Part shown: piece by piece, positions 3,435-20,576 of the stretch | Layout: each line of letters starts with the position of its first letter | How positions within the stretch are numbered: position 1 is the first letter of the stretch | Assembly (NCBI RefSeq): GCF_001610895.1 | Contig: NZ_CP011273.1 | Coordinates: 6,014,001-6,078,000, forward strand | Direction of reading: 5' to 3' | Source of the DNA: Planctomyces sp. SH-PL62 | GTDB lineage: Bacteria; Planctomycetota; Planctomycetia; Isosphaerales; Isosphaeraceae | Length of the DNA stretch: 64,000 nt | The notes under the pieces: model-generated | Told to the model about the DNA's origin: nothing | The model's input: only the letters and a program-made list of their open reading frames with translations | The model's database searches: none | Translations under genes and position numbers: made by a program

Positions 3435-5312
3435 TTAGCCGACTGCCACTTGGCCAGACGACTTCGATTTCCCTCCGTTAGCCGTAACCTCTGAATCGTC
3501 GGCATGCCCCTTCGGGATGATGACCGGCTCGCAGGCCAGGCTCTTCCGGAAGGCTGCCCCTAGGTTGACGGTCTGGCCCCGAAGCGCCTCCCAGCATCGC
3601 TTAGCCTTGCACCACTCGCCGATGTTCTGCCCCCCGGGAGGCGACGTGATGCACTGCTGGGCCGCGAGGCCGATCCTCGCGATAGCCTGCTCGACTGGCT
3701 CGCTCAGCTCCTGCTCTTTCCAGATCCTGTCGAGGTCGAGGCGGCCCCCCGTTGAGTGGGCGAGGTAGGCGATCGAGTAGGTCACGATGTTCGCCTTGTA
3801 GCCGCCGAGGTCGAGGCCCTGGATGATCTGGTCGGTGCGCTTGAACAGGATCGCGAGGGCGACGATCCGGTTGAAGTCACGCGTCTCAACCTTGTCCCAG
3901 GCCGCCACCCCGCGCGCCGCGGACATGAACTGGAGGAAGTTCTTCTGCGCGCCCAAGCTCACGACGTGGGGCAGCTGGTGCCAGGAGTTAAGGAGCTTCC
4001 CGATGTCAGTCTTGGAGAAACGCTGGGTCGGCGGGTAGAGCTCGCGGAACCGCTTCTTCCTCGCGAGCGTTCCCAGCCGCCCCTGTTCGTAGAGATACTG
4101 CCCACGCACCCTCTCGTAGAACCAGTAGGACTCCTGTCCCCCCGCAGGAGCCGGGGCCAGGGTCGTCCGCGACAGCTTTTCGATTCGGACGTGGAAGGCC
4201 TCGTTGGCCGCGAAGTCCGCCTCGCTCACCTTGTTTTGGCTGTTCGCGTACTGCGAGATCAGCGGGACGACGCCCTCGACGGCCTCCTCCGGGACGACGG
4301 TCAGCTTGGTCTGCACCATGACCCCGTCCAGCTTCGCCCCGTCCTTGAAGCGGGCGTGGTGTATGGTGGCGGTCGTCTGCCCGCCATTGACGATCTGGAG
4401 GTTTCGGATGTGGGTGATGGCACGTCCGCCGCCCGGGACCTCGACCAAGGTGACCGCGTCCGCCACGGCGGAGATTCCGTTGTTGAACGCCAGGAACCTC
4501 TGAGGCTCGTTGATCAGCGTCCGCCTGATGCCCTGATTGACCTTGCCTCTGATCTGCAGGAACGCCCGGACGTTCCGCTCGAGCATCCGAAGACCATGCG
4601 TCTCGTACAGCTCGGACAGGATCTCGCCGGGGAGGTAGGTCAGGTAGACCGCGCAGTCGCCCGCCGCCCCGGGGGTGACCAGGCAGGGCAGGTTCTGGCC
4701 GAACTGCTTCTTGAGGTCGATCTCGATCGGCTCGGCCTGGCTGCCCGAGGTCTCGAAGCGATGGAGCCTGGTGATATCCCAGATCTCGCAACTCAGCTTG
4801 ATGCCGGCAAGCCGGTCGTCGTCCGATTTGGCCGACATTCCGTACTTGGTGAGCTTGACCTGTCCGTCGGTGAACAGGAAGAGCCGTACTTTCTCGAGCG
4901 ACTTCCGGTGCTGGTAGATCCGGTGCGCGACGGCGTGCAGCTCGGAGGATTGTTCCAGAGTGCGGTGCAGGCCGTCGAAGCACTTGCCGAGGAACGCCGC
5001 GAGACGCCGGAACTGGGCGTCGACCAAGTCCTTGCCGACCGTCGGCGGCGGGCTCCCCTTCGCGTGGATGCAGGTGAACAGGTCGAGTCGCCCGTCGTCC
5101 TCGCTCAGGTGATACCCATTCACCTCGATCCCGCGCGCCTTGTGGTAGCAGTCCTCGCCGCCATCCAGCACGCCCAGCCCCTCAAGCCGCTCGATCATCA
5201 CGCGGGTGAACGTGTTGATCCAGTAACCCGACCCTTCCGCCGAGGTGGACTGGTCATCGACCTGCAGGCGCAACTCATCCGCATATTCCTGCAGGCTCAC
5301 GTCCACCTTCAT
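3435..5312 (-). CDS. AIPR family protein (abortive-infection phage resistance type)
   Basis: A 625-residue protein of the AIPR family (PF10592). The diagnostic region around residues 225-320 contains LPGEILSELYETHGLRMLE, RNVRAFLQIRGKVNQGI, RFLAFNNGISAVAD and LQIVNGGQTTATIHHARF. Family knowledge: AIPR proteins occur in abortive-infection loci and in MORC/Z1-containing restriction-like operons; the biochemical activity is not established. The N-terminal ~200 residues contain a plausible nuclease-like alpha/beta segment (VRLFLFTDGQVKLTKYG), which I cannot assign. It is the last gene of the seven-gene minus-strand operon. Its ATG overlaps the stop of the DUF4420 gene as ATGA (5309-5312), so translation is probably coupled. 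Confidence 0.9.
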   Translation of the reverse strand: MKVDVSLQEYADELRLQVDDQSTSAEGSGYWINTFTRVMIERLEGLGVLDGGEDCYHKARGIEVNGYHLSEDDGRLDLFTCIHAKGSPPPTVGKDLVDAQFRRLAAFLGKCFDGLHRTLEQSSELHAVAHRIYQHRKSLEKVRLFLFTDGQVKLTKYGMSAKSDDDRLAGIKLSCEIWDITRLHRFETSGSQAEPIEIDLKKQFGQNLPCLVTPGAAGDCAVYLTYLPGEILSELYETHGLRMLERNVRAFLQIRGKVNQGIRRTLINEPQRFLAFNNGISAVADAVTLVEVPGGGRAITHIRNLQIVNGGQTTATIHHARFKDGAKLDGVMVQTKLTVVPEEAVEGVVPLISQYANSQNKVSEADFAANEAFHVRIEKLSRTTLAPAPAGGQESYWFYERVRGQYLYEQGRLGTLARKKRFRELYPPTQRFSKTDIGKLLNSWHQLPHVVSLGAQKNFLQFMSAARGVAAWDKVETRDFNRIVALAILFKRTDQIIQGLDLGGYKANIVTYSIAYLAHSTGGRLDLDRIWKEQELSEPVEQAIARIGLAAQQCITSPPGGQNIGEWCKAKRCWEALRGQTVNLGAAFRKSLACEPVIIPKGHADDSEVTANGGKSKSSGQVAVG

Positions 5313-6313
5313 GGGCCGGCCCCCGTTATCGTGCCGATCACCGTCGCCTCATCGACCCGGTGACGCATACACTCTGCCACGCTTATGGAATAACGTACCG
5401 CGCCGACGCCGACTTTCAGGCCGGCCTCGACGATCCGCGGGAAATCGCCCGCCACCTGAAAATAGTTCGCGGCCCTGATCGCGTAGCCGGTTTCGAGATA
5501 CTGGGGCGAGTGCGCGTCCAGGTAGCCGGCATCAATCAGCCGACTCTCGAACGATTCCGATGGCAGGGCCTCACCGGCGAGCGAAGCCCTGACGGCGGCG
5601 ACCAGCGCAGGAAGCGTCTCCGCGCCACTTGGCCGTTCCTCCAGGGAGAGGTGCAGGACGAAGAGCAGCCCCTCCGCGTCGAGCTGCCTCTCGCTAGCGA
5701 TCTCGAGCACCTGATGAAACTTGGCGGTCGTCGACTTCACTTCGACGGACGACTCGGAAAACTGGAAGTCCTGGTCGGCGGCGAGCGGCCCCCTCCAGGC
5801 GTCGACCGCCACTCTTGCATCGATGCTGCTGCCGAGCAACGTCTGGAGGAATTTCAGCTCGCCGAAGAGGCCCTGCCGGGCTGGAGGCGCGAGGCCTTCG
5901 GGTGCCGTCCGATCCAGGAACTGCTGCCACTTGCGCAGCCTCGCCACGAGTGCCTCGGCGGCAGCCGGGCCGTCCGCGGCGCGCCCCAGATGGCGGGCGA
6001 GGTCCTCGCAAACGACGGTGTAGATGTCGGCGTACCGCGACTCAATCAGGCGCACGGCGACGGTCGCCTGTCCTGCCCTGGGTTTGGCCATCGAGATCTG
6101 CGATACCTCGATCCCCGCAGAACGGGGGAGTTTCCCGGCCCTCGCGAGCGGCCCGGACGGCACGCCGACCAAGAGGACGCGATTCCCCGCGGGAAACTCG
6201 ATCGCCGCGCGCATGTCGCACGGGGAGTCGATCCCCACCCGGCGGGAGAGGTAGCCGGCCTCCGGCCTCGCGGGGTCGTTAGAGATCTCCTGCCATAGCG
6301 TCTCGAGGCTCAT
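5309..6313 (-). CDS. PD-(D/E)XK motif protein (DUF4420), putative nuclease subunit
   Basis: A 334-residue protein matching DUF4420 (PF14390), a PD-(D/E)XK-superfamily group. The catalytic set is visible: Glu in GLFGELKFL (E152), Asp in AADQDFQF (D182), and SVEVKST (E191, K193). This spacing supports an active Mg-dependent nuclease fold. In restriction-like operons it is the probable DNA-cleaving component beside the Z1 ATPase. It starts at ATG 6313, overlapping the Z1 stop (ATGA at 6310-6313), and its own stop overlaps the AIPR start, so three consecutive genes are chained. That it cuts unmethylated DNA is an inference from context. Confidence 0.9.
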   Translation of the reverse strand: MSLETLWQEISNDPARPEAGYLSRRVGIDSPCDMRAAIEFPAGNRVLLVGVPSGPLARAGKLPRSAGIEVSQISMAKPRAGQATVAVRLIESRYADIYTVVCEDLARHLGRAADGPAAAEALVARLRKWQQFLDRTAPEGLAPPARQGLFGELKFLQTLLGSSIDARVAVDAWRGPLAADQDFQFSESSVEVKSTTAKFHQVLEIASERQLDAEGLLFVLHLSLEERPSGAETLPALVAAVRASLAGEALPSESFESRLIDAGYLDAHSPQYLETGYAIRAANYFQVAGDFPRIVEAGLKVGVGAVRYSISVAECMRHRVDEATVIGTITGAGP

Positions 6314-9114
6314 TCCTCGCCCCCGAATTCCTGGGCGAAGTAGACGTTGTTCACCCGGTACCTGAGGCGCTCGGTCCGGGAACCACCCGGGAAGCTGATG
6401 GCGAACCCGATGGGGATCTCCTCCACTGCTGCCGGGCCGGGTTCGAGCGGGTAGATCAGCAGCAGCCCGCGGGTCACGGGTCGGCGGTCGCGGATCTGGA
6501 CACCGCCCGGCACGTCCGGCTCCTTCTTACCGTCGGCTGACCGGTTCGGGTCGGCTCCCCAGGCCTGCCGGGTCGCGTCCAGGGCTGCTGCGATGTCGGC
6601 CTTCGTCATGTCGAGCGTTTCGTCGGACGGGCTCACGAGGCGGCGGATCGTGTAGCGAGCCCTCTCATCGTCCGCCTTAAAATCCTGTCCGATGTGCTGC
6701 CGCTTGATCAGGCCGACGCGGTGGCCGCCAATCTCCCGCTGTTCCGCCTCCTTCTGGCTGCTGGAGATGAGCGCGACGGTCCACTCCGTCAATTCGTCTT
6801 CCCTGAGGCAGTTCTGGATGTAGGAGCGGATGAGCGGGATGCGGACCTTGTCGACGTCGTTGGGGACCCTGAACCGGCCCAGGAAGTCGTCCAGCACCCT
6901 CTCGGTCGGCACGCCGTCCCAGATGAGCGTGGCGAGCGGCTTCTTGTCCGTCCGTTCCCGCGGCTTGCCGAGGCTAGCGACGAAGTCCTCGACCGCACTC
7001 CTGTTCCGAGCCAGGGTCGGCCGGTCCCTGAAGAGAGAGATCGTCTCGCTGATGCCGCCCGAGTAGGTCAGCTCCATCTGAACGCCATGCCGCATCTTGA
7101 CGCCGCTGGTGATGAGCAAGTCGGGGTGGCACCGGACTCGGTGTCCGTACTGTTCCGGCGTGGAGCGGGCGAGGGCCATCTCGTCGAAGCGGCTCCTGAG
7201 TTCCTCGCTCGCGATTGAGATGTGCTCGTACCAGCCGATCAACTCGTCCGTGGTGTAAAGGCGGCAAAGGTCGAGATAGCCGGGACGGTACCCGAACCAG
7301 CGGCCCATTTGCATAAGGGTGTCGTACATCTTGGTGGAGCGCAGGTAGTAGCTGACGCTCAGCCCCTCGAGTGTTAACCCGCGCGACAGCTTGTCGCCGC
7401 CAATGGCGATCACGCTCAGGCCCTGCGAGGCGTTGGCGGAGTAGTCGAGGATGTCCCCGGCCATCCCGTTCACGACACGGACCTTGATCCACCGGGCCGC
7501 GTCCTGGAGGTGGGCCTCGACCTCTTCCCACACCAGAGCCTGGTACTCGTCCTCGCCGGAGAGGCGCGTAGCATTCATCCGGTCAGTGGTCGGCTCGAAA
7601 TCACGCTCCCATAATGCCTTCAGCTGCGGCATGAGAGCCTCGCCCGCCGCGCCTTGGCCGCGCCTCAGCACCTGCTCGATCCAGGTCATCTCCTCAGCGA
7701 TTTGCCGTGAGATGGTTTCCTGGACGTTTGTAAATTTCGTGACATGGACCAGCATCGAGCTGTGCTTCATCGCCTGCCCGCGGGCGCGCCGGGCGGCACA
7801 GACAAGCACGAAGGCCCGAATCGCCTCCTTGAGCGTATCGGGGAGTTCCCCGGGTACATGACCATTCTTGTGTTTGTCCGGAACCCATCCCTGATAGTCG
7901 GCGATTGGGCGAATGATCGGCAGGGGTTCCCTCTCTTCCAGGCCGGCCTCCGGGTCGGCGTCGTGGCCGAATACCCGGGCCGGGCCGACGTAGTTGGAGG
8001 GGGCCGGCATGTTCTTGATGAAGCTGCGGGGGAACAGGTCCTCGCCGTGCTTCGCCGTCTTTCCCTTCTCGTGGATGAAGATGTTGGCGAACGGCGTCGC
8101 CGTGTACCCGATATATGCAGTCTGCTCGAAGTGGTACAGGAGCTTCCGTATCAGCCCGTTGATGGCTTTCGGGTCGTGATCGGGGTCGGGCTTCCCGTCC
8201 TCATTGATGTTGCCAACGCCGGTGTCTACGGACGCGTAATCCGCCTCGTCATCGATCACGATGAGGGGCACGCCACGCACGAGCTTCCTGCCCTCGGCCC
8301 CCGGGGTGGCATAGAACTCCACCCAGCGCAGCAGGTTCTTCAGCACTCCGGCGTTCTTCTTGACCACGAACAGGAGTGGCTTCCCGCCCGGCTGAATCTT
8401 GAACCTGTCGGCCACGGCCCGGTTGAAGTCCCCATTCTGGGAGCTGTTGGTGATGGTGTCCGGCGCGGGGCAACTGGGGTCCAGGTTGCCGACCCCGACC
8501 AGCTTCATGCCCCCCTCCTGGAAGATCTGGCTACTCTCGTAGCCGAGGAACCCCTCGTCGAGGCGGAGCTGCGTCTGGCTGCGGAGGTTGTCGTGCCCGC
8601 CGGCGAGGACGACGATGAGCTTGTACCCCGCGTCGGCCGCCTTGCAGATCAGCCCGGTGTAGTGGGCCGTCTTCCCCGACTGGACATTGCCGCAGATGAG
8701 GCCCCGCCGATCCCATGCGCCTGGACGGGCAGGGTATTCGATCCAGCCGAGTACCTCTTCGATAAGCTTGTCCGTTCGGTCAATGACCTTCGGGGGCCAG
8801 TTCGCCTCCTCCTCGAGGAGCCGGGCGTACCGCTTCCAGTACCGCCAGCCCGTGGCGGCCTCGATCTCGGCATGGCGGGTTTCCAGCCACGGCTCGTGGC
8901 CGGCCTGATCAACCAGGATCGCGCCAATACCTATGGTCACGTTGAAGAGCGTCTCAAGCTCCCTCACGAGCCGATCACGATCCTCATCGTCCAGCGGTAC
9001 CAGTTTGCGTGCCTGCTCAACCTGCTCCCGGATGCAACCATCGGGGAGCGGGCGAGGAGCGGACTTGAGGAGCACCTGCGCCACCTGCCTGACCTGCTCG
9101 TACGGTGTCGTCAT
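6310..9114 (-). CDS. Z1-domain superfamily-2 ATPase/helicase-like protein
   Basis: A 934-residue protein with Z1 domain (PF10593) and helicase-type motifs: Walker A GNVQSGKT (142-149), DEAD-like IDDEADYAS (about 287-295), motif III YIGYTATPFAN (about 334-344), and a late GGDKLSRGLTLEGL then LMQMGRWFGYRPG block (motifs V/VI). Family knowledge: Z1 proteins are found with GHKL ATPases, m5C methyltransferases, DUF4420 and AIPR proteins in restriction-like systems. It is likely the DNA-translocating or remodelling motor. ATG 9114 is chosen because it overlaps the upstream stop as ATGA (9111-9114). The frame stays open further upstream, but that extension lies inside the preceding gene. Confidence 0.93.
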   Translation of the reverse strand: MTTPYEQVRQVAQVLLKSAPRPLPDGCIREQVEQARKLVPLDDEDRDRLVRELETLFNVTIGIGAILVDQAGHEPWLETRHAEIEAATGWRYWKRYARLLEEEANWPPKVIDRTDKLIEEVLGWIEYPARPGAWDRRGLICGNVQSGKTAHYTGLICKAADAGYKLIVVLAGGHDNLRSQTQLRLDEGFLGYESSQIFQEGGMKLVGVGNLDPSCPAPDTITNSSQNGDFNRAVADRFKIQPGGKPLLFVVKKNAGVLKNLLRWVEFYATPGAEGRKLVRGVPLIVIDDEADYASVDTGVGNINEDGKPDPDHDPKAINGLIRKLLYHFEQTAYIGYTATPFANIFIHEKGKTAKHGEDLFPRSFIKNMPAPSNYVGPARVFGHDADPEAGLEEREPLPIIRPIADYQGWVPDKHKNGHVPGELPDTLKEAIRAFVLVCAARRARGQAMKHSSMLVHVTKFTNVQETISRQIAEEMTWIEQVLRRGQGAAGEALMPQLKALWERDFEPTTDRMNATRLSGEDEYQALVWEEVEAHLQDAARWIKVRVVNGMAGDILDYSANASQGLSVIAIGGDKLSRGLTLEGLSVSYYLRSTKMYDTLMQMGRWFGYRPGYLDLCRLYTTDELIGWYEHISIASEELRSRFDEMALARSTPEQYGHRVRCHPDLLITSGVKMRHGVQMELTYSGGISETISLFRDRPTLARNRSAVEDFVASLGKPRERTDKKPLATLIWDGVPTERVLDDFLGRFRVPNDVDKVRIPLIRSYIQNCLREDELTEWTVALISSSQKEAEQREIGGHRVGLIKRQHIGQDFKADDERARYTIRRLVSPSDETLDMTKADIAAALDATRQAWGADPNRSADGKKEPDVPGGVQIRDRRPVTRGLLLIYPLEPGPAAVEEIPIGFAISFPGGSRTERLRYRVNNVYFAQEFGGEE

Positions 9115-10655
9115 GACCTGGTGCCCTTCTTTTTCACCGAGGCAGGAGGCAGGATCGCCTCGACCAGATGCCCGTGCTCTGCGAACGCCTCCATCCCCCG
9201 CAACCGCTCCGAGGCTTCGGAATCGGAGAGCCCCGCCGCTCGCAGGGCGGCGTAAACCTGCCGGATGACTCCCGAGATGTCCTTGTCGGGCGCCTTCTCG
9301 AAGGGCTGGGAGTGCGCATCGGGCTTCTCGGTTTCTTCGAGCCAGATCCTCCGGATCGGCACGGTCTCCTCGAGCAGCCTCAGGAGCGCGACAAGAGTTG
9401 GGCGGAGTTCCTTGGATTCGGCGAGGCATCGGGCGATCAGCGGGTGCTCACGGTTGACGACGTACCCGATTTTCCCCGCCCGCTCGGCCGCGTTCCAGAC
9501 AGGATCGACCGGTCCGGTCCGTCGCGGCGCGGCTGCGCCACCGCGGTGCCGGTAGACCGCTACCGCCTTCTTGCGGACCCCCTCGGCGATCCAGCGGAGC
9601 CGCTTGCGAAGGTGCGCGGGCGGCCTCGCTGTCGACTTCTTGACGTCGATGTCCCACTCCCGGTCCGCGGCGTTGTTTATGTCGACCCGGATCCGTGCGA
9701 GCTTGTAATGTTCCTCCTTGGTGAAGCCCAGCCCCAGCCAGTCGCCGGGCACGAGGAGGCGGCGGTTCCGGTAGACGTAGAAGCCCTGCTGGGCGTTCCA
9801 CCCCGCCGGCCCGCCGGCGGCGCGGTGGGCGTCCCTGGTCAATCGGTCGTGGTGGGGCAGAACGAACTCCTGTACCTCGACGCTGCCAGAAGAGGTCTCG
9901 AGCGTTTCGACCGGCCCGGCCTGGGTGGCCGTTTCATCCTCCAGGAAGGGGTCCCAGGGGACGACCCGCTCCCGTTCACCCTGCCCGTTGATGAAGAGCC
10001 TGATCGAGCCCTTCCCCTTGAGGTACCGGTGGAACACCATCCCGAGGTGCTCCTCGACATGCTGTACCAGTTCGAGGAATCTCTGGTGGTCCGTCTTGTT
10101 CGTGGTCTCGGTCCCCGTTACCAGCCTGTCCATCTGCTCCCACAGGACCACCGTCCCGTGTCGCAGCTTGCCGATCTGGGCCAGGCGCGGCATGGACCCC
10201 GAGGCCGCCTCGCGCAAAAGCTGCCAGTCGCGGACCTTCTGGACGTGATCGAGGTCCCACCTCCGGACGGCGGGCTGAGTTCCATCAGTCGTGCTGGCGA
10301 CGGTGAGGCGGCGGCACTGGGAGAAAGAGGCGGTCTTCAGGCCCAGTCCGAAACGGCCGAGATCGCCTGGAGTCCTCGGGGCCAGCGGGCTCCGGCTCCC
10401 GGCGCGCATCGCATTGACCAGATCGGCTTCCGCCATCCCGGCACCGTCATCGGCGATCGCCACATGCGATTCCGGGCCGTTCCAGAAGAACGTGAGCCAT
10501 ATATTCCTGGCCTCGGCCGAGATGCTGTTATCGACCAGATCCGCTATCGCGGTGGGGAGGTCGTAACCGAAGGCGCGCAGCGACTCGATCATGGCCGCCG
10601 CATCCGGGGCCACCAAGTCGTAGCCAGGTTTCGCCGACCGGGAACCCCTTGGCAT
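9111..10655 (-). CDS. MORC/MutL/Hsp90-like GHKL ATPase
   Basis: A 514-residue protein with an N-terminal GHKL ATP-binding fold. The N-box is AIADLVDNSISA (N43), followed by VAIADDGAGM (about 66-74) and the lid/G-box LGRFGLGLKTAS (99-110). A following S5-like domain region contains GFYVYRNRRLLVPGDWLGLG and WDIDVKKSTARPP, typical of the MORC/MutL group. Family knowledge: such ATPases form ATP-gated dimeric clamps on DNA, and bacterial MORC-like proteins lie in R-M-like operons. ATG 10655 follows a 133-bp gap after the second methyltransferase gene, so it may have its own translation signals. Its stop overlaps the Z1 start. Confidence 0.92.
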   Translation of the reverse strand: MPRGSRSAKPGYDLVAPDAAAMIESLRAFGYDLPTAIADLVDNSISAEARNIWLTFFWNGPESHVAIADDGAGMAEADLVNAMRAGSRSPLAPRTPGDLGRFGLGLKTASFSQCRRLTVASTTDGTQPAVRRWDLDHVQKVRDWQLLREAASGSMPRLAQIGKLRHGTVVLWEQMDRLVTGTETTNKTDHQRFLELVQHVEEHLGMVFHRYLKGKGSIRLFINGQGERERVVPWDPFLEDETATQAGPVETLETSSGSVEVQEFVLPHHDRLTRDAHRAAGGPAGWNAQQGFYVYRNRRLLVPGDWLGLGFTKEEHYKLARIRVDINNAADREWDIDVKKSTARPPAHLRKRLRWIAEGVRKKAVAVYRHRGGAAAPRRTGPVDPVWNAAERAGKIGYVVNREHPLIARCLAESKELRPTLVALLRLLEETVPIRRIWLEETEKPDAHSQPFEKAPDKDISGVIRQVYAALRAAGLSDSEASERLRGMEAFAEHGHLVEAILPPASVKKKGTRS

Positions 10656-10788: not shown

Positions 10789-12306
10789 TTATTCGGATTC
10801 TCCTCCCCTTCCAGCGTCTTCCGGCGACCTCGCCGGCTCGCCTAGCAGGCCCAGGACGGTGCGGGCGATGGCCCAGGCCATGAGCGGCGGCACGGCGTTG
10901 CCGATCTGCCGGTAGCAGTCGCCCATGTTACCCGAGAACGCGAAGCCGTCAGGGAATGATTGGAGACGAGCCGCCTCCCGGACGGAGACCGCCCGCTTCT
11001 GCGTCCCGTCGTAGTGGATGTGCGAGTAGGAGTCCTTCCCCAGGTGCGCCGTGACGGTCCAGGACGGCCCGCCCGGCACCAGCTTCCGCCACTTGTCGAC
11101 GAACTTGTCCTCGGGATACGGCGGGAAGAGTTCTCGTGCGAAGCCGACCAGCTCGGGCGACCACTCCTTGAACGGCAGGCCGATGCTCCGGACTCGCTCG
11201 AACTCCTCCCGCAGGACGCGGAGCGCGTCGATTTCCTCCCCGCTCTCGCCCTCCAGCCTGTCCCGGAACTTGCAGCGCACCCTCTCGGTGGCGATCTCGA
11301 TGGCCTCGGGATAGCGGTCTCCCGGCCGCATCAGGCCGAACGTCTCGTAGTCGCGTCGCGTCCGGCGGATGACGTGGTCGACGATCCCCTCTGGTCTCCC
11401 GAGTCCCGGCCAGGATCGCATTAGCCGAGCGTAGGCCGAGTGCGGCGGCCGGTCGTATGCCATGCGGCGCCGGAAATCGCCGCGTGGAAGGTGCCCCTCG
11501 CTGAGGTGGTCCTCCAGTCGCGGCAGGTCATCGAGCCCTTCGAACACTGAGGTGGCCGGGAAGCGGGCCTGCCCGTGACTCACGTCGAGGTCGTAGTGCA
11601 TGACGAACGGCAGATAGGTCGCGTAGTGGGTCGTCCTCGCCGAGGCGGCGGTGGTGAAGTAGCCGGAGGGCATCACGCCGATGCGATGCGTCGCCGGAGG
11701 CATGGCTGGCCGAGCAGCCAGGTCCTCCCTGACCCCAGTGAAGAACAGCCGCTCCCGGAACTGGGGTACGCCATACCACACCGCGTTCAGGACGGCATAA
11801 CCGACGCGGTAGCCGGACTCGGCGAGGTCGGCCCCGATCTCCTCCGCGACGTTCTGGCCGCCGATGGAGAGCATCCCCGGGACGTTCTCCATGACGAACG
11901 CCTTGGGCTTCCAGCGGCGCACGGCCGACAGGAAGATCTTGTAGAGCTCGTTCCGCGGGTCCTCCTCGAACCCTTCCTCCCTCTGCCCCTCGTCGCGCAG
12001 GGAGTCGAGCTTGGCCCGGCCGATCCGCGAGAACCCCTGGCATGGCGGGCCGCCGATCACGATATCGACGTTCTCGACTCCCGGGATGCCGTCCAGGTCA
12101 TACGAATGGAGGTCGCCCTCCCCGGGAGACGGTACAACCGGTGGGGCCTCGGGCTGCAGGCGAGTAAAGTTCTCCAAGAAAGTTGCATTCGCCGAGTCGT
12201 CCTCATCGATGCCAGCGAGGATTCGGCACCCGGCCGCCTGGAATCCGAGGGACATCCCGCCTGCGCCGCAAAATAGATCGATTACGACAGGTCCGCCTAC
12301 CGGCAT
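10789..12306 (-). CDS. DNA (cytosine-5-)-methyltransferase, second of two in the operon
   Basis: A 505-residue Dcm-type methyltransferase that transfers a methyl group from SAM to cytosine C5. Conserved motifs in order: I, VIDLFCGAGGMSLGF (8-22); IV, GGPPCQGFS with catalytic Cys89; VI, FVMENVPGM; VIII, QFRERLFF; IX/X, VREAARLQSFPDGF and QIGNAVPP. A long variable region between VIII and IX (about 200 residues) should hold the target-recognition domain. Start ATG 12306 is moderately supported. The frame stays open into the preceding gene, but no conserved sequence precedes motif I. It protects host DNA or marks it for the system; the target sequence is unknown. Confidence 0.9.
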   Translation of the reverse strand: MPVGGPVVIDLFCGAGGMSLGFQAAGCRILAGIDEDDSANATFLENFTRLQPEAPPVVPSPGEGDLHSYDLDGIPGVENVDIVIGGPPCQGFSRIGRAKLDSLRDEGQREEGFEEDPRNELYKIFLSAVRRWKPKAFVMENVPGMLSIGGQNVAEEIGADLAESGYRVGYAVLNAVWYGVPQFRERLFFTGVREDLAARPAMPPATHRIGVMPSGYFTTAASARTTHYATYLPFVMHYDLDVSHGQARFPATSVFEGLDDLPRLEDHLSEGHLPRGDFRRRMAYDRPPHSAYARLMRSWPGLGRPEGIVDHVIRRTRRDYETFGLMRPGDRYPEAIEIATERVRCKFRDRLEGESGEEIDALRVLREEFERVRSIGLPFKEWSPELVGFARELFPPYPEDKFVDKWRKLVPGGPSWTVTAHLGKDSYSHIHYDGTQKRAVSVREAARLQSFPDGFAFSGNMGDCYRQIGNAVPPLMAWAIARTVLGLLGEPARSPEDAGRGGESE

Positions 12307-12416
12307 GCCATGAATCCGTTCCCGAAGTCGGCGGGGCGTGAGGTGCACGTCGTGCGCGAATCCTGGACCCCGTCGGAATTGGTGGATTATACCCCCAAAT
12401 CGCCTTGCGGTCGGGA

Positions 12417-14483
12417 TCACGCGTATCCCGTCGCCCGGGAACGCTTTCTGGAAAACGTGACGAGGAAATTGGCGCCACGCCTGCGAGCGTCCGTCATCAG
12501 GACGATCGTGCCGCCGTGTGCCTCGACCATCTGCCGGGCGATGGTCAGCCCCATACCCCGGCCGCCTTCCTTGCTGCTGAACAGCGGGTCGAAGATTCGC
12601 TCCGCCAGCTCGAAGGGAACGCCCGGCCCACCATCGGAGAAGATCATCTCGCAATGGTCTCTCGACCCTTTCAGCGTCAGCCTGATCCTCGGCCCTTCCT
12701 CACCCCGGCTCCAGTCGAGCGCATTCGAGATCAGGATCTGGAGCAGGCAGCAGAGATTCTCCGGCCGCATCTCGGTCCGCAGGAGATCGGTCTCCTGAAT
12801 CACCAGCTCCATCTCGGCGCCGTGGGCGGCGAGGAGGGGTTCGATGAGCTGCCGGAAAGCCCGGGTCTCCGCGACCAGGTCGATCGCCCGTCGCCGCTCG
12901 GAGCCGCCGGTTGCAGCGGTGATCACGCGGAGGGTCTCGTCGATCTTGCCTAGCGAGGCATCGAGGCCTGAGATCGAATCGCGGACCTCCGGGATTCGCC
13001 GGTGGTGGAGGACGGCCTTCAGCCGCTCCAGCTCGTCGCGAATTCGCTTCATCTCGTGGGGGATGACCGGAAGCATCCCGGCGGTCATCTGCCCGATCGC
13101 CGCGACGCTCGAAAACCCTTCGACCATGCGTTTGCGGTCGGTGACGTCCCGCAGGGCCCGTTCCTGGAGCCGGTGCCTGATGGCCCTGAGTTCCTGCCCG
13201 ACCTCGCCGCCTGCCTTGCCTGCCAGCTTCTCCAGTTTCGCCGTGATGGAATCCACCTCGGCCGCTCGCTCCTCGCCGGGCCTCGTCCCCCGCTTCACCG
13301 GGTGGCGGATCGACTGGCGTTCCGCCTCGATGCTCTGGAGGACGAAGCCGGCGAGTCTGCGGAGGTCGTCCAGGGCCTGATTGTGGATCAGACCCTCGCG
13401 GTTGGTCTGGTCCATCAGGTCGGGGTTGCGGTCCCTCCCTATGTCGATGAAACCGATCACCTGATTGTTGCTGAGCTTCTCGACCGGGTTGTTCACCCGC
13501 CGCTGGTCGAGGCGTAGCCAATCGTCGTGGGGCTCGCCGTAGGGCCAGACCCGGAAACCATCGCGGTAGATACTGACCCCGGTCCATTCCCGCAGCCACG
13601 CCCGCACCTCCATGCGGGGGCCGATCCTGGCCAGAGACTCGCCCTCGAGGTCGAACGCGAAGATCCTGATCCTGACCGGCCCGCACGAGATTTCCCCATG
13701 GCCGTTCCACCGCTGTGCCACCGGGCGGCGGTTATTGAGCGCGATGGTGACGGTCTGCTCGCCGTCGAATTCCGCCTCAACGCGGTATGGGGCCTTCTCG
13801 AGAAAATCCTGGCGCAGCTCTCCCGAGTATTCCGGGAAGTCGTCGGATTCGATGTGAATGACGAACCTGTCCTTGTCCGTCCTGAACGGCGAGAGCAGGC
13901 GGGAAAGGCGTAGCGACAGCCGTCGGAACATACGCTCCGTCCACTGGGAGCGGAGCCCGCCCATGCGCAGCAACGTCCCGTGTCCATCGATCTCCCGAGC
14001 CTGCCGGACCTCCCAGCGGTTCAACACCTCGGAGAGCATAATCGCCTCGTCATCGTATCGGTCCCAGTCGACGACGGCGTGCACCTCCTCGGCGTGCCGC
14101 GGACACCGAGAGACGATGGTGAGGTTGCGAGCCAGCTTGTCGGCCGCGAACCGTCCGACCCCCTTCTCGCCGAGAACTCGCCGCCCGAGCCGCGTTACCT
14201 GCCTCCCCTTGCCGACCTTCGTGCTCGCAGCCGGCTCCATCCAGCGTCCTAGCAGCGTGTCCACGTCCATCCCGTGACCGTCGTCGCGGATGCTGATGAA
14301 TCCGTCCGGGCCGGTCACGCCCTCGAACGAGATGGTGACCCTGTGGGCGTCCGCGTCGTGCGCGTTCTTGACCAGCTCGCTGATCGCCACGACCTCGTCG
14401 CTGATAAGCTCCTCACCTATGAGCTTGAGCAGGCGGGCGCGGGGCTGGAAGGCGATGCTGCCATTCTTGGCTGCGACACTCAC
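12417..14483 (-). CDS. Protein with two GHKL ATPase domains (Hsp90/MORC-like N-terminus, histidine-kinase-like C-terminus)
   Basis: A 688-residue protein. The N-terminal GHKL domain has ISELVKNAHDADA (N40), IRDDGHGM (66-72) and GEKGVGRFAADKLA (105-118). The middle is helical and charged. Residues about 450-530 include GQMTAGMLPVIPHEMKRIRD, which resembles a HisKA dimerisation region with a His in the H-box position. The C-terminal GHKL domain has ILISNALDWS (N587), FSDGGPGVP (about 616-624) and GGRGMGLTIARQMVEAHGG (about 640 on), as in sensor kinases. GTG 14483 is chosen because AGGAG sits 8 bases upstream inside the end of the preceding gene, leaving a 4-base gap. No response regulator is visible nearby. 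Its role may be ATP-gated sensing within the R-M-like system (inference). Confidence 0.88.
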   Translation of the reverse strand: MSVAAKNGSIAFQPRARLLKLIGEELISDEVVAISELVKNAHDADAHRVTISFEGVTGPDGFISIRDDGHGMDVDTLLGRWMEPAASTKVGKGRQVTRLGRRVLGEKGVGRFAADKLARNLTIVSRCPRHAEEVHAVVDWDRYDDEAIMLSEVLNRWEVRQAREIDGHGTLLRMGGLRSQWTERMFRRLSLRLSRLLSPFRTDKDRFVIHIESDDFPEYSGELRQDFLEKAPYRVEAEFDGEQTVTIALNNRRPVAQRWNGHGEISCGPVRIRIFAFDLEGESLARIGPRMEVRAWLREWTGVSIYRDGFRVWPYGEPHDDWLRLDQRRVNNPVEKLSNNQVIGFIDIGRDRNPDLMDQTNREGLIHNQALDDLRRLAGFVLQSIEAERQSIRHPVKRGTRPGEERAAEVDSITAKLEKLAGKAGGEVGQELRAIRHRLQERALRDVTDRKRMVEGFSSVAAIGQMTAGMLPVIPHEMKRIRDELERLKAVLHHRRIPEVRDSISGLDASLGKIDETLRVITAATGGSERRRAIDLVAETRAFRQLIEPLLAAHGAEMELVIQETDLLRTEMRPENLCCLLQILISNALDWSRGEEGPRIRLTLKGSRDHCEMIFSDGGPGVPFELAERIFDPLFSSKEGGRGMGLTIARQMVEAHGGTIVLMTDARRRGANFLVTFSRKRSRATGYA

Positions 14484-14487
14484 GGGG

Positions 14488-16632
14488 TCAGCTCCTTTCG
14501 AGGGCGCGGCGGAAGCTGCGGGCGATCGCCTCGGCCAGCACAGGCGGGACCGCATTTCCGAGTTGGACCCACTGCTCGGACGGGGAACCGCAGAAGATGT
14601 ATCCGTCGTGGAACGACTGGACGCGGGCCGCCTCGCGGAGGCTGATGGACCGCACCTGGGTGGGATGGATGTAGCCGTTGCCGTCCTTCGCGAGGTGCGC
14701 CACGATCGTCTTGCACGGTCGGTCGCCCCGGAGCCTCGCGTACTTGTCGTCGAACACGTCCCGGCGGTAACGCATCAGGTCGCTGCGACCGTGTCTTTCG
14801 AGGGCGTGGATGCTGTCCTCGCCAGGCCGGAGCATGGCGTAAAGTTCGAGGTCGTTCGGGTTGTGGTAGCGGACGGTGTGCTGATACAGGAGGCGAGACG
14901 CGCGGAGTATGCCGAATTTCGTGAGGTAACGGCGGAACCGCGGATCGGTCAAGGCATGCGGCGTCGACCAGCCCTCGGTCGACTTGCCCTCCCCTGCGGC
15001 CCGCTCCGGCAGGTCGAATATCGCCTCGGACAGGCCGACGGGAGGTAACGCGTCATGGTCGAGGTGCTGACTGCGAGTGTCCTGGTAGTCCGCCGTGGGC
15101 ACGAGCGGCATGACCTTCAGGCGGGAGGCAACGAGAAACATCCGGATGCGGTCCTGCGGCACGCCGAACGCTGAAGCGTTCAGGCGCCAGACCTCGGTCT
15201 GATAGGTGCCTTTCTGTTCGAGCAGTCGTGCCGCCGTGTCGAGGAAGGAATGGTCCTCACGCTTCGCGGACTTCATGCCCGGCACGTTCTCCATCAGGAA
15301 GAGCTTCGGACGGAGGACCAGCGCGGCCTCGACCATCGTTTCGTACAGGTGGTTACGGTCGTCATCCTGGGGGCGATAACCAAGAAGCGATTTCTTCGAG
15401 CGGAATCCGACCGAAGAGAACCCCTGGCAAGGGGGCGCACCAGCGAGGACGTCGAGCGACTTCCCGGCCAGCCGCTTCAGGTCGCCCGTCGCGAGGGTGC
15501 GGATATCCTGCTCGATCACCCGCTCGTCCGGCACGCCAGGGTGGTTGAGCCGATAGGTGCGAGCGGCCATCTCGTCCATCTCGACCGCCGCGAGCGTCTT
15601 GAAGCCCGCCCGCGAGAAGCCTTCCGAGAGGCCTCCGCCCCCGGCGAACAGATCCATGACCGTGGGCGACTCCGCCGCCATGGCACGCTCCGACTCGGCC
15701 TTGCGGTAATACTGGCAGAGGTTGCGGATCTCGCAGGTGCCGCAGAGCGGCTTCGGGCTCCTGCAGACGGTCCGCCCGTGCTCGACGAGGTTGACGTGCA
15801 GGGAGTAGCGGAGGTTGGGTGGGATCAGATCCGCGAGTTCACGCTGAAGCTTCTTGTGGTCCAGACCGTCTAGGGAGAGCCCCAACTCGCGGTAAGGGCC
15901 GATCCGGCTGAGAACCCGCCCGACGTGCGTGTCAGCCGGGAAGACCAGACGACCAAAGGCGTACATCATCACGCAGTAGGCGCTCTTCCGCTGGATCTCG
16001 GGCAGCTCGCAAAGGAAGGCCTCGAGCCTCTCGTCGGACCAGTCGCGAGCTGGCTCCAGCGTGCAGGAACCGAAAGTCTCCCGGAGCTTGCCCAGCGCGG
16101 AGTAGAGCGCGAGAGTCTTCTTCCCCGACAGGCCGCCCGAATAGACGAGCCGCTCGACCTCGTCCCGCGGGGCGTCTAGCATCTGGTCCCAGGTCGGGAA
16201 CCGGCGTTTCAATGACTCGAAAGCCGTCTGGTAGGCACCTTCCCGGGTGTGCCGAGCGAGCAGGATGTAGACAAGCTCGTCGGTGGGATCCTTCTTGTTG
16301 CCGAGGTCGGGCGAACCGTAGAGCTCGGCGAGGATTCGGGCTACCTCGCGAAGATGGCTGATGCCGGAATCGAGTCGCTCGGTCAGTTGCTCCGACGGGA
16401 GCCCAGAGGTGAGCGTGAACCGTCCGGGCGTTTCGAGGAGCTCCTTCAGGAACCGCTTCCTCCAGCGGACGACCTCGGAAGGGAAGGCGCGAATGCGATT
16501 CCAGAAATCGCGGCGCTCGCTCGGGTGCGGGGTCCAGCCCGAGCGGTCGGGGGCCACGGGCGTGCAATCCTCCTCGGCGGCCGAGGCTGCCTCCACCTCC
16601 GCTGATTGATTTGACGGACCAGCCTTCTTCAT
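14488..16632 (-). CDS. HhH-GPD DNA glycosylase fused to a DNA (cytosine-5-)-methyltransferase
   Basis: A 714-residue fusion. Residues about 80-310 form an endonuclease III-like HhH-GPD domain. K216 in IQRKSAYCV and D234 in FPADTHVGRV are 18 residues apart, as are Lys120 and Asp138 of endonuclease III. A C-X6-C-X2-C-X5-C 4Fe-4S motif follows (C290, C297, C300, C306). Residues about 323-714 are a complete m5C methyltransferase: motif I MDLFAGGGGLSEGF, motif IV GAPPCQGFS (C402), FLMENVPGM, LREAARVQSF and QLGNAVPP. The canonical LPGVG hairpin is altered to LPEIQ. The ATG at 16632 is preferred to an in-frame GTG at 16692. It is the first gene of the seven-gene operon. The likely role is methylation plus excision repair of damaged or mismatched bases (inference). 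Confidence 0.9.
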   Translation of the reverse strand: MKKAGPSNQSAEVEAASAAEEDCTPVAPDRSGWTPHPSERRDFWNRIRAFPSEVVRWRKRFLKELLETPGRFTLTSGLPSEQLTERLDSGISHLREVARILAELYGSPDLGNKKDPTDELVYILLARHTREGAYQTAFESLKRRFPTWDQMLDAPRDEVERLVYSGGLSGKKTLALYSALGKLRETFGSCTLEPARDWSDERLEAFLCELPEIQRKSAYCVMMYAFGRLVFPADTHVGRVLSRIGPYRELGLSLDGLDHKKLQRELADLIPPNLRYSLHVNLVEHGRTVCRSPKPLCGTCEIRNLCQYYRKAESERAMAAESPTVMDLFAGGGGLSEGFSRAGFKTLAAVEMDEMAARTYRLNHPGVPDERVIEQDIRTLATGDLKRLAGKSLDVLAGAPPCQGFSSVGFRSKKSLLGYRPQDDDRNHLYETMVEAALVLRPKLFLMENVPGMKSAKREDHSFLDTAARLLEQKGTYQTEVWRLNASAFGVPQDRIRMFLVASRLKVMPLVPTADYQDTRSQHLDHDALPPVGLSEAIFDLPERAAGEGKSTEGWSTPHALTDPRFRRYLTKFGILRASRLLYQHTVRYHNPNDLELYAMLRPGEDSIHALERHGRSDLMRYRRDVFDDKYARLRGDRPCKTIVAHLAKDGNGYIHPTQVRSISLREAARVQSFHDGYIFCGSPSEQWVQLGNAVPPVLAEAIARSFRRALERS

Positions 16633-17089
16633 CACCCATCCCAATCCAGGACAACCATTTCGGGCGCGAACCGGTAACGCCACCCGATTCACGGGCTCGT
16701 CGCAGCCCCACGGCTCGGTGGGCGACCGATGTCCCCGGATCGACCGCCGCCACCGTTGTTAACCGCATTCTCGCAGGGATACGGCCCCACCGTCCAGGCC
16801 GCACCGGCGGAGATCCCACCAGGAACATTCTGCGCCTGTAGACGCCGGTTGCGGTCGTGGCGATGTCCTGCGGACGGACGATTCTGAGGAAGCGGCCACG
16901 AAACGTTATTTGTCTGCGGGACCAGATTTTCTGATTGCAACAGTGATTCTTTATGTGGTTATTAAGGCGATTCACGCGATGGCGTCCCGTCCCTGCACTG
17001 CGATTTCGTACACCGCGCTCGCTCACGACGTGTCGTGGATTCGGGTAAAATCAATCCGACGATAATCGATCAGCCGGAAGGAGGACGCC
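16633..17089. other. Divergent promoter region of the R-M-like operon
   Basis: About 450 bases with no convincing gene. The part near 16910-16980 is AT-richer than its surroundings (for example gattctttatgtggttatt), and a short inverted repeat CACGAC-gt-GTCGTG lies at 17024-17037. The region separates the minus-strand methylase operon from the plus-strand gene at 17090, so it should contain both promoters. I cannot place -35/-10 boxes with confidence. Confidence 0.4.
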
Positions 17090-17424: not shown

Positions 17425-18816
17425 TCACGTCGCCCCATCACTCTCCAAGGTCTCGCCAGCAGAAGCGGATCGACCTTCATTATCTTTCTGCTTTTCTTTC
17501 AGAAGAGATTTTCTAATCTCGGCGACTTCTCTCTTGATCTCGTCCGTCCATTCGACATATCTGGCGACACCACCTCGATCGAGCGATTCCAGGTCTAGCT
17601 CTGGAAAGTTATCTCTTAGATACGCATTCAACTGCTTGAACGACTCATAGGCCAATTTAACCCGCTTGTGAAATCGCGGATATCTCTTATCGAAATCGGT
17701 TGGTTCGCGACTCCAGTGAACGCGGCGTGCGATGCCGGTGCTCAGAGGATCCTCAAAAAACCCCGCCGAATCCTCCTGGGTTTGCAACCAATACTTGAAG
17801 AAACCATCAACCCTCGCCTTTAGCTGTTGATCATAAAAATGAATCATCGCCGATCCCACATACTTCTCAGCAGGCTCGACCTCTGTGAGAATATCGTAAA
17901 TCCACCTATCCTCGTTTGCTTCCTCTAGGAAATGACTTACCAATGGCCTAGGCATTAATCCAAACAGCACAGTTAGGGTTTTCAAGTCTGACTTACGCCG
18001 GGTCTCATCGAGGGCATCAACACTGATAGCGGGCGGGTGAGCTTTCGCCGATTCTGATCGAGGCGATTTCTCGATAAGCACAAACGATTTCAAGGCCTCA
18101 GCTACAAATGCGGCCGCGTTCGCGGCCGCTTTCGCCTGACGTTGATTCTTCCTCAAGTTTTTCTTGCCGTCCGCCCAATCGCATATCGCTTTGATGACAA
18201 TCCAATCGACTTTATTCTCCTCGCACGCAATATAGACCCCTGCTCCTTCCATCTCTCCGCCGATCGCCTCGCCCTCATACTTCAGGAGTTCGTTTCGATA
18301 GTCGATGTTGTCGATCAATTTGTCGCCCGTTAGGATTAGACCTGCCTTGGCTTTAGCCCCTTCCCATTTGAGCTGATTAAAGTTCTCGAAGAAATTTATC
18401 AGTCGAGTCGAGGCGTGGGGTTTGTCGCCCCTAGGTACAATTTCTTTTCCTTCTTCTGTCCCGACTCGTCGGAGTTCGTAAGTCCACAACTGCGATGAAA
18501 TGAGAATGTCGCCGATTTTCTGCTTCTTCTCGTCGACGCCAAATGCAATTCCTACGGCGATAACGACCTCAGGATTGATCGTGTCGATCGCCATGTCAAC
18601 TGATCTTTGCGAGCCTCCTCGGCCGCCAGAACCCATCTCTGTGAGCAGATGGAAAATACTGGCGCCATTTAGGGTGCCAAAATCGTTGTACACGCGTTTT
18701 CCTATGGTTTTCGGCGCATGGGGCTGTCCGGTTGCTAATGAGAGGGCTTTCGACAAAGCGGTGGTCTCATGCGGATTTACGGTCACGATTAACACGTCTG
18801 CGTACCGCTCGGCCAT
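17425..18816 (-). CDS. Nucleosidase/PNP-superfamily protein with an extra C-terminal domain, putative defence effector
   Basis: A 463-residue protein. Residues 1-250 are an MTA/SAH-nucleosidase-like PNP_UDP_1 domain: VVIAVGIAFGVDEKKQKIGD (85-103), GGEMEGAGVY with E190, and IKAICDWADGKK with D213, matching the catalytic Glu and Asp of MTA/SAH nucleosidases. Residues about 260-440 form a separate, mostly helical domain I do not recognise. Family knowledge: PNP-like domains serve as nucleotide-depleting effectors in several anti-phage systems, including ATP-cleaving ones. The gene is clearly AT-richer than its neighbours, with many AAA/GAA/ATT codons, suggesting recent transfer. It sits between the methylase operon and an IS cluster, with no partner gene next to it. 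Confidence 0.8.
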   Translation of the reverse strand: MAERYADVLIVTVNPHETTALSKALSLATGQPHAPKTIGKRVYNDFGTLNGASIFHLLTEMGSGGRGGSQRSVDMAIDTINPEVVIAVGIAFGVDEKKQKIGDILISSQLWTYELRRVGTEEGKEIVPRGDKPHASTRLINFFENFNQLKWEGAKAKAGLILTGDKLIDNIDYRNELLKYEGEAIGGEMEGAGVYIACEENKVDWIVIKAICDWADGKKNLRKNQRQAKAAANAAAFVAEALKSFVLIEKSPRSESAKAHPPAISVDALDETRRKSDLKTLTVLFGLMPRPLVSHFLEEANEDRWIYDILTEVEPAEKYVGSAMIHFYDQQLKARVDGFFKYWLQTQEDSAGFFEDPLSTGIARRVHWSREPTDFDKRYPRFHKRVKLAYESFKQLNAYLRDNFPELDLESLDRGGVARYVEWTDEIKREVAEIRKSLLKEKQKDNEGRSASAGETLESDGAT

Positions 18817-18969: not shown

Positions 18970-19381
18970 CTACGGCAATGATGGGTAGGGCCTGTTGACG
19001 GATTATTCCGCAAGACCTTTTCGGGCATGACCTTACGGCGAGAGGCAAACTCGGTCGGGCCGACCGCCAATCTTGACTGCTACGGGATTTACGACCGAAC
19101 CGTCAACAGGCCCTAGATTCGGTGGAGCTTGATGCGGGCGTCGGCGGTGGTGAACCGCCAGCGGGTCTCGACCCGGCGTTCGTTCCGCTCCTCCTCCCAG
19201 GCGGCGACCTCCCGCTCCAGCTCGTCCATCGACCCGATCCGGCGGTCGAGGCACTGGCGGGAGAGGACCGACAGCTCGATCTCGGCGACGTTCAGCCACG
19301 CGCCGTGCTTCGGAGTGTGGTGGATCTCCAGCCTCTCGGCGATCCGCCGGGCCTGTTCCGGCGGGAACGCCTCGTATAGGC
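18970..19381 (-). pseudogene. C-terminal fragment of an IS630-family transposase, interrupted by a MITE
   Basis: The minus-strand frame reads SLYEAFPPEQARRIAERL, HHTPKHGAWLNVAEIELSVL (with the catalytic Glu of the DDE_3 domain), CLDRRIGSMDELEREVAAW, and WRFTTADARIKLHRI. This is the C-terminal ~95 residues of an IS630 transposase. The fragment abuts an IS3 element at 19381/19382. A 126-bp insertion (18988-19113) splits its last codons. Removing the insertion and one copy of the flanking TA restores LHRIYPSLP followed by TAG at 18970-18972. The N-terminal two thirds are not found beyond the other end of the IS3 element. Confidence 0.8.
18988..19113. mobile_element. 126-bp MITE with 14-bp terminal inverted repeats and TA duplication
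   Basis: GGGCCTGTTGACGG (18988-19001) and its exact reverse complement (19100-19113) bound a 126-bp non-coding segment flanked by TA on both sides (18986-18987, 19114-19115). The last 7 bases of the repeat (TTGACGG) match the ends of the IS5-type element at 22856-23751. The left ~80 bases also resemble that element's leader: both end in GCCGACCGCC at a similar distance from the end. It is best read as an internal-deletion derivative of a related IS5/IS427-group element. It inserted into the 3' end of an IS630 transposase gene. Confidence 0.85.
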
Positions 19382-20240: not shown

Positions 20241-20576
20241 GATCGTCCTGCGTTGCGGCGGGGTCAGGCTTTTTCGCCGGGACGTCCCGGAGCGTCTTTT
20301 TGTCGAGGCTCAGGTCGGCGACGAGTTGCTTGAGCTTCCGGTTCTCCTCCTCGAGGAGCTGCAGCCGACTCACCTCGGGCGTCCCGAGCTCGCCGTACTT
20401 GGCCTTCCATCGGAAGAACGTGGCCTGGCTCACGCCCAACTTCCGACACGTGGCCTCGAAGCCCAGGCCGGCCTCCGCCTGCCTCAGCGAAGAGGAGCTG
20501 CTCCTCGTTGAACTTCGACTTCCTCATGGATCAAGGCTCCTTTTGGGGGAGCCTCATCTTTCCCGGGGGGAGGTCA
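19382..20576 (-). mobile_element. IS3-family insertion sequence (1195 bp)
   Basis: The ends match as imperfect inverted repeats: TGACCTGCCCCGGGAA at 19382 and the complement of TGACCTCCCCCCGGGAA ending at 20576. Between them are orfA (frameshifted) and orfB (DDE integrase) in the usual overlapping IS3 arrangement on the minus strand. The flanks (AGGC on the left, AGTC on the right) are not a clear target duplication. The two sides belong to unrelated sequence (IS630 fragment on the left only), suggesting a rearrangement after insertion. Confidence 0.8.
20161..20527 (-). pseudogene. IS3 orfA (HTH protein), frameshifted
   Basis: Two frames join to give a typical IS3 OrfA. ATG 20527 starts MRKSKFNEEQL. 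After a loss of about two bases near 20490 the other frame continues LRQAEAGLGFEATCRKLG, VSQATFFRWKAKYGELG (helix-turn-helix) and LEEENRKLKQLVADLSLDKK (leucine-zipper region). The downstream end overlaps orfB. Without repair of the shift no full OrfA can be made, so the element is probably non-autonomous. Confidence 0.75.

Follow-up and report, generated by a model that had tools for sequence, protein, structure and literature searches.

Why should an enzyme that writes 5-methylcytosine (m5C) be joined, in one polypeptide, to an enzyme of a family that removes bases from DNA? The question is raised by a gene of Planctomyces sp. SH-PL62, found in a stretch of 64,000 nucleotides (the window) that is part of a 6.8-Mb genome (G000, contig C1). 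The gene encodes an HhH-GPD glycosylase domain followed by a cytosine-5 methyltransferase. The answer that we favour, and consider probable on comparative sequence grounds, is that the fusion serves an MZA-like anti-phage operon as a self-repairing m5C methyltransferase, its HhH-GPD domain repairing T:G (and U:G) mismatches and so replacing Vsr.

Deamination of m5C yields thymine and leaves T:G mismatches at methylated sites, and both Vsr and Mig repair the mismatches that arise in this way. Vsr is an unrelated nuclease of the PD-(D/E)XK type and initiates repair with a nick. In the proposed scheme the C-terminal domain of the fusion would, as is expected of its family, methylate cytosine at the recognition sites of the system so that host DNA is spared. 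The N-terminal HhH-GPD domain would excise the mismatched T (and U) opposite G near these same sites, and base-excision repair would then lead back to C. This would be the job that Vsr is thought to do beside most other MZA methyltransferases examined. Fusion would couple the amount of the repairer, and perhaps also its location, to that of the enzyme that writes the mark.

The fusion gene and its glycosylase domain

14488..16632, minus strand: fusion gene, 714 residues from an ATG (open reading frame, Pfam, motifs, same fusion in L017)
15685..16452, minus strand: HhH-GPD/EndoIII-like glycosylase domain, residues ~61-316, with 4Fe-4S cysteines (Pfam, PDB sequence matches, AlphaFold 2 model, fold match)
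14491..15666, minus strand: m5C methyltransferase domain MT1, residues ~323-714 (Pfam PF00145, 172 bits; motifs; PDB matches)
15985..15987, minus strand: K216 codon, at the Schiff-base lysine position of EndoIII (motif position; alignment with EcNth, Mig, DrEndoIII-1 and ROS1)
15931..15933, minus strand: D234 codon, catalytic aspartate (motif position; alignment)
15715..15765, minus strand: 4Fe-4S cysteine block C290-C297-C300-C306 (motif check)

The frame could alternatively start at a GTG (14488-16692, 20 further residues), and it contains no internal stop. Pfam recognizes both halves in the same protein: HhH-GPD (PF00730) with 27.8 bits against a cut-off of 26.2, or 30.7 bits for the domain alone, and DNA_methylase with 172 bits against a cut-off of 22. 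Motifs I, IV (PPCQ), VI (ENV), VIII and X, together with the PF00145 match, place MT1 among the m5C methyltransferases, and its sequence matches in the PDB are DNMT1, M.HaeIII and M.HhaI. An earlier note on this DNA had described one protein containing an HhH-GPD glycosylase and a complete m5C methyltransferase, and had named K216, D234 and the four cysteines; the single reading frame, the Pfam matches and the motif check agree with it on each of these points.

The same note had raised, in advance, the possibility of an error joining two genes. A sequencing or assembly error is ruled out as the source of the fusion, because the same fusion is present in another assembly, a Planctomycetota metagenome (L017; glycosylase domain 66% identical) and further fusions occur in L009, L023 and L100. 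Those of L009, from another genome of the window's class, and L023, from Desulfallas, also have the glycosylase first, and that of L100 is reversed, with the methyltransferase first and the glycosylase last. Since the domains of L100 are reversed, at least two of the fusions must be separate events. On the glycosylase tree described below, the starred branches require that the fused label was gained or lost at least four times among the five fused rows.

The catalytic Asp is conserved throughout the alignment, apart from a Glu in L003_1381. All five fused forms keep the Asp and the four Cys, and the Lys is replaced by Tyr in L009 (as in Mig) and by Thr in L100; a variable Lys beside conserved Asp and Cys is as expected if base removal is the conserved function. 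The altered hairpin to which the note had drawn attention, LPEIQ at residue 210, is present, and its altered form is partly common to the nearest relatives (PEIS in L017, SEVG in L018, PEVG in L019), with PGVG or PGIG in most of the remaining rows of the clade. K216 permits lyase activity without proving it. The prediction of such activity from the Lys is weak: Deinococcus radiodurans EndoIII-1 (DrEndoIII-1) has the Lys and yet is, in the available part of one report, mostly a monofunctional glycosylase (PMC10523315), and the related fusions have Tyr or Thr at this position.

An AlphaFold model of the domain alone has a mean pLDDT of 91.7 and a pTM of 0.87 (80.5 and 0.68 for the full-length fusion protein). 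Its top fold matches are D. radiodurans EndoIII-1 and EndoIII-3 (Z 23.2-23.7), followed by other EndoIII (Z 20.6-21.3), ROS1 (20.2) and Mig (19.9), where matches with Z differing by less than 1 are ties. DrEndoIII-1 (DR2438, pdb 4unf) is also the closest solved sequence (4e-28, ~29% identity); it is alike in sequence and fold but is a stand-alone protein. D234, the EndoIII fold of the model (Z ~23 to DrEndoIII-1) and the Pfam score place the domain in the HhH-GPD superfamily. The NCBIfam equivalog cut-offs for Endonuclease III (nth; TIGR01083, 61 against 211.7 bits) and for DrEndoIII-1 (DR2438; NF053634, 107.9 against 400 bits) are both missed. By sequence the domain is likewise not of the Mig type, having Lys in place of Tyr, with Mig outside its grouping. 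ROS1 and DEMETER have a split glycosylase domain and a C-terminal extension, whereas the domain here is continuous over 256 residues and is followed directly by the methyltransferase. The model has an EndoIII fold, not the HALFPIPE fold of PabI.

Such a fold (Z 20.6-23.7 to EndoIII chains for the model) could mean that the domain performs ordinary EndoIII oxidative base repair and was fused by happenstance. We regard this as the least probable of the explanations considered. The genome has six other HhH-GPD matches, all of which score higher on the Pfam model and four far higher (59-93 against 31 bits), the EndoIII equivalog cut-off is missed, and linkage to methyltransferases is repeated.

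A clade of methyltransferase-linked glycosylases

A profile built from an alignment of three methyltransferase-linked glycosylases was searched against genome contigs and gave 21 loci. An m5C methyltransferase is present in 13 of them (L020 repeats a query locus), four have an adjoining DpdA-like gene (L027, L029, L031, L034) and four have neither (L032, L035, L036, L037); among the last, the upstream sequence of L036 is just 104 bases long, and L032 and L035 are not members of the clade described below. As a control within the phylum, the same profile at 1e-25, with up to seven candidates scored per genome, gave 61 matches, spread over 59 of 392 genomes. Around the 58 matches that were new, an m5C methyltransferase was seen in three cases (L094, L095, L100), all of them clade members, and in none of the remaining 55, where some contigs are short. 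This control rules out chance neighbours as the cause of the linkage.

The glycosylase tree comprises 90 rows, six of them references, and leaves out two degenerate haloarchaeal rows (L012_7050, L013_7380), two divergent ones (L135_2904, L003_1381) and the duplicates L007, L008, L011, L015, L020, L094 and L151. One clade of 25 glycosylases (support 99/97) includes the window domain. Five members are fused, 14 are near an m5C methyltransferase (that is, anywhere in the fetched locus), four are beside a DpdA-like gene and two have neither. Eleven of the 14 are immediate neighbours of the methyltransferase (L030 on the opposite strand), and L026 is 1.8 kb away. Outside the clade, linkage is found in one of 59 non-reference rows, L012_6099, itself fetched for its linked methyltransferase, and in Mig among the references. 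Comparing the clade with the other rows gives a Fisher value of 9.8e-13; because the query was built from methyltransferase-linked members, the counts were also computed without the three query rows and L012_6099 (16/22 against 0/58, 2.8e-12), and both values are guides only, since related rows are not independent. The family hidden Markov model (HMM) was seeded with clade members, so its bit scores are not independent evidence; the tree is. A clade with conserved linkage was thus found, rather than the position deep within ordinary EndoIII, free of methylases, that the note had held up as the opposing outcome.

The clade, DrEndoIII-1, DrEndoIII-3 and ROS1 form a group (98/96) that excludes E. 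coli Nth, which belongs to another (98/96). Mig lies outside both and is also absent from a set of 87 rows (100/99) to which the clade belongs. This grouping, and the match of the KSxxC and FPxDTxVGR stretches to ROS1 in the alignment, would suit a writer joined to an eraser, in which the domain removes m5C as plant ROS1 and DEMETER do and makes methylation reversible. The likeness to these plant enzymes that the note had seen holds for the broad tree group and the catalytic motif region. It does not extend further: ROS1, represented by an incomplete row (48% of columns) on a long branch, has an uncertain position within the group, the pairwise scores of the domain with ROS1 (1.8e-12) and with E. 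coli Nth (1.3e-12) are equal, and the nearest solved relative is DrEndoIII-1. The available text on the plant enzymes describes a 'unique split Nth-like' domain and a C-terminal zinc finger (PMC9266487), whereas the window domain is continuous, fused to a methyltransferase and without plant-type extensions. The group also holds DrEndoIII-1 and DrEndoIII-3, described without m5C activity in the accessible part of their report (PMC10523315), erasure would undo self-protection, and the glycosylase alternates with Vsr (see below). We therefore consider m5C removal by this domain very unlikely.

Plasmid and phage collections were also searched with tblastn, and their matches stand outside the tree. 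None of 195 plasmid records covers 80% of the whole protein. The glycosylase domain has no match above 36.3% identity among the best 60 of 68 in plasmids, nor among all 11 of 11 matches in phages, and L039 has none above this value among the best 25 of 36 in plasmids. IMG/VR gave the matches L038, L039 and L173. In L173, a viral contig, the frame of the glycosylase relative is broken in two, and no methyltransferase was found in its 7.7 kb.

The MZA-like operon and alternation with Vsr

The fusion gene heads an operon-like series of seven minus-strand genes, the ends of which mostly overlap. It is followed by:

12417..14555, minus strand: GHKL ATPase (HATPase_c_3 and HATPase_c; Pfam, phmmer)
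10789..12654, minus strand: second m5C methyltransferase, MT2 (Pfam 185.9 bits; tree)
9111..10655, minus strand: MzaB, MutL/GHKL ATPase (PADLOC 425 bits; NCBIfam 511 bits, cut-off 850)
6310..9429, minus strand: MzaC, Z1 domain (PADLOC 812 bits from residue 113 on; Pfam Z1 276 bits)
5309..6313, minus strand: MzaD, DUF4420, PD-(D/E)XK (Pfam 251 bits, PADLOC 105 bits)
3435..5312, minus strand: MzaE, AIPR (Pfam 313 bits, PADLOC 334 bits)

MzaB, MzaC, MzaD and MzaE are found together and in order (PADLOC 425, 812, 105 and 334 bits), as in the MZA anti-phage system, the name and origin of which reportedly go back to Gao et al. 2020. The NCBIfam equivalog cut-offs are missed (511 against 850 bits for MzaB, 882.5 against 1500 bits for MzaC) and no MzaA match was found among the six proteins scanned; the operon is therefore named 'MZA-like'. 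What also sets it apart from the MZA system is the presence of two methyltransferases, of a second GHKL ATPase and of the glycosylase fusion. The real start of MzaC is probably near 9117. MT2 sits two genes downstream of the fusion, and the GHKL ATPase has homologues (phmmer) in L017 and in two Vsr-type MZA loci, L161 and L163. Around the fusion of L017 lie the end of MzaB, complemented by MzaC, MzaD and MzaE, as well as an MT2-type methyltransferase and the GHKL ATPase.

The minus strand also encodes, immediately upstream of the operon (17425-18816), a 463-residue protein with a PNP_UDP_1 nucleoside phosphorylase domain and weak PADLOC effector matches (60 bits), possibly a further defence gene. 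Frames at 19113-20439, further features upstream of the operon, resemble by eye an integrase-type insertion-sequence transposase pair.

MzaC is present in 12 of 392 genomes of the phylum, its own included, and the other 11 loci were fetched; it also matched 31 records of a plasmid collection, 14 of which were opened. Among the 25 MZA loci fetched, 23 carry an m5C methyltransferase, 18 of these with Vsr, and no glycosylase of the clade was seen in any of the 23; no methyltransferase was seen in L063 (3.4 kb) or L170. Neither of the two fusion-bearing MZA loci, the window and L017 (14.7 kb), has Vsr, and in all, Vsr and a clade glycosylase occur together in none of 25 methyltransferase-bearing MZA loci. 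The Vsr tally counts near-identical loci repeatedly (L158/L159; L162/L164/L166). A local Vsr HMM has no match in window positions 1-30000, and the sole Vsr (PF03852) match of the genome (G000:C1:59960) lies outside the window at the far end of C1, where it overlaps a different m5C methyltransferase.

The methyltransferase tree gives stronger evidence for this alternation than the locus counts. Nine enzymes form a clade (100/97) in which four are partnered by the glycosylase (MT2 of the window, MT2 of L017, and the enzymes of L018 and L019) and five by Vsr (in MZA plasmid loci of Rhizobium, Sinorhizobium and Ensifer). Over the whole tree a minimum of six partner switches is needed, with the partner labels set per locus and three loci contributing two methyltransferases each. 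Gene content and trees together show one predicted repair enzyme standing in for an unrelated one.

Several observations weigh against repair as the role of the fusion. In five MZA loci (L060, L062, L160, L168, L169) the methyltransferase is accompanied by neither repair gene, only two MZA loci carry the fusion, and the Vsr contrast alone is weak (Fisher 0.07). In the clade, the methyltransferase is 4-5 kb away in L028 and L095, the four members that adjoin a DpdA-like gene have no methyltransferase in view, and L037 (7-kb flanks, short frame) has neither; linkage can likewise come from shared residence in defence islands. The window domain has Lys, not the Tyr of Mig, and its sole PADLOC match, which can be read either way, is to a 'Type II nicking endonuclease' model (39 bits).

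The note had left open whether the fusion repairs the deaminated m5C of its own methylase or excises cytosine or m5C as a restriction activity. Repair is the better supported because of the alternation with Vsr, the linkage to methyltransferases and the separate restriction or defence genes in the loci; the other option finds little positive evidence beyond the catalytic residues, and both restriction by base excision and erasure of m5C are less likely. It is in particular unlikely that the HhH-GPD domain acts as a restriction or demethylating glycosylase linked to an m5C methyltransferase of its own, so that excising bases at the methylation site would serve as the attack or the off-switch of an MZA-type system. 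If true, this would be a second restriction-glycosylase lineage, unrelated to PabI, the HALFPIPE-fold family reviewed by Kojima and Kobayashi 2023 (PMC10273834). Restriction taken by itself, in which the HhH domain would take a base out of phage DNA lacking (or carrying) methylation at the site while the fused methyltransferase protects the host in a PabI-like manner, we judge more doubtful again. The catalytic Lys and Asp are intact, a glycosylase paired with a methyltransferase follows the gene logic of PabI systems as given in the available review text (PMC10273834), and the nicking endonuclease match would fit. However, the operon already has PD-(D/E)XK-family MzaD, Z1 and AIPR genes, separate type II restriction and HNH genes stand in L033 and L022, the glycosylase alternates with a repair enzyme, the Lys is replaced in L009 and L100, and the term 'HhH' is absent from the available text of the PabI review.

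Other defence contexts and known systems

The glycosylase accompanies methyltransferases across defence types, often beside other potential attack genes. DrmA and DrmB of DISARM are present in L016, L018 and L023, and likewise in the haloarchaeal L014. In L033 a methyltransferase and glycosylase are found with a type II restriction gene (364 bits), for which a search for the recognition site gave no NCBIfam or PDB match, and L022 has an HNH gene in the corresponding place (83 bits; 47 bits to a type II restriction HNH model). With such separate genes present, the glycosylase need not be the restriction part.

At L015:10044-19477 the surroundings of the Tyr-type L009 fusion include an R-like gene of type I restriction (154 bits) and other, unassigned genes. 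This locus, in which no MZA gene was seen, represents another defence context. In L021, L024, L038 and L039 the methyltransferase and glycosylase stand beside an SNF2-type helicase and one further gene (699, 408, 529 and 509 residues, without a Pfam match), a possible undescribed defence module. Four Chloroflexales loci (L027, L029, L031, L034) hold a tight sub-clade of the glycosylase directly after a DpdA-like gene, the ends overlapping (for example L031:2145-4075). The DpdA of L031 gives 439 bits in PADLOC and 462.9 bits in NCBIfam (cut-off 200); those of L034 and L029 are recognized by Pfam TGT and that of L027 is assigned solely on its similarity to L031. L034 also has a weak DpdH match (45 bits) close by.

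Degenerate HhH-like domains (34-47 bits) are found at the N-terminus of haloarchaeal plasmid methyltransferases encoded beside DrmA-like genes (L012:6099-9290, L013:7380-9626, L014:7524-9836); L012 and L013, the two rows aligned, lack the Lys and have two of the four Cys. A separate Mig-like (Tyr) glycosylase gene lies ~140 bases from the degenerate fusion of L012. The MZA methyltransferase at L057:13167-15023, in a locus that also has Vsr, has an apparent degenerate HhH/Fe-S domain at its C-terminus (23 bits). Such domains would be in keeping with an HhH domain that is mainly a DNA-binding or base-flipping scaffold for the methyltransferase, catalysis being incidental. For the window fusion this is highly improbable: all five clade fusions retain the Asp and the four Cys, clade members are mostly separate genes, and L012 has its Mig-like glycosylase beside the degenerate fusion.

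Repair by the fused domain has a precedent in Mig.MthI, a T:G/U:G glycosylase. The note had described it as a separate Fe-S glycosylase beside an m5C methyltransferase, and this is borne out by plasmid pFV1, on which Mig lies near an m5C methyltransferase and a restriction gene. Like the fusion, Mig.MthI is an Fe-S HhH-GPD protein encoded with an m5C methyltransferase and presumably does the same job; unlike it, Mig.MthI is a separate gene, has Tyr and not Lys, falls outside the clade and belongs to a type II restriction-modification (R-M) system, not to MZA. Vsr, as in dcm-vsr, is similarly a dedicated repair enzyme for m5C deamination beside a methyltransferase. MORC/paraMORC R-M operons are also alike in combining GHKL ATPases with cytosine methylases, AIPR and Vsr in their neighbourhoods (Iyer et al., 2008; PMC2292703), and the terms 'glycosylase' and 'HhH' are absent from the available text of that paper. 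Both terms are also absent from the available part of a YprA-helicase preprint on DISARM, Dpd and Druantia (PMC12458937), as is 'MZA' from the text of Rousset et al. 2022. The arrangement is real and recurrent, a variant of the methyltransferase-plus-repair-enzyme pair; no earlier description of an HhH-GPD/m5C-methyltransferase fusion was found in literature titles and abstract openings, a scope outside which most subscription papers and REBASE fall.

The use of m5C as a self-mark costs mutations, and the present findings suggest that interchangeable repair parts, either Vsr or a distinct clade of Fe-S glycosylases, are built into anti-phage systems to meet that cost. Glycosylases of this clade have been fused to a methyltransferase more than once, and both domain orders occur. 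For deazaguanine DNA the same question arises from the side branch beside DpdA-like genes, where a base-excision enzyme would be linked to deazaguanine insertion. A fused writer and repairer would be a handy reagent to study or limit m5C mutagenesis, and the alternation of the two repair enzymes yields a testable rule for 'EndoIII-like' genes in MZA, DISARM and type II R-M loci.

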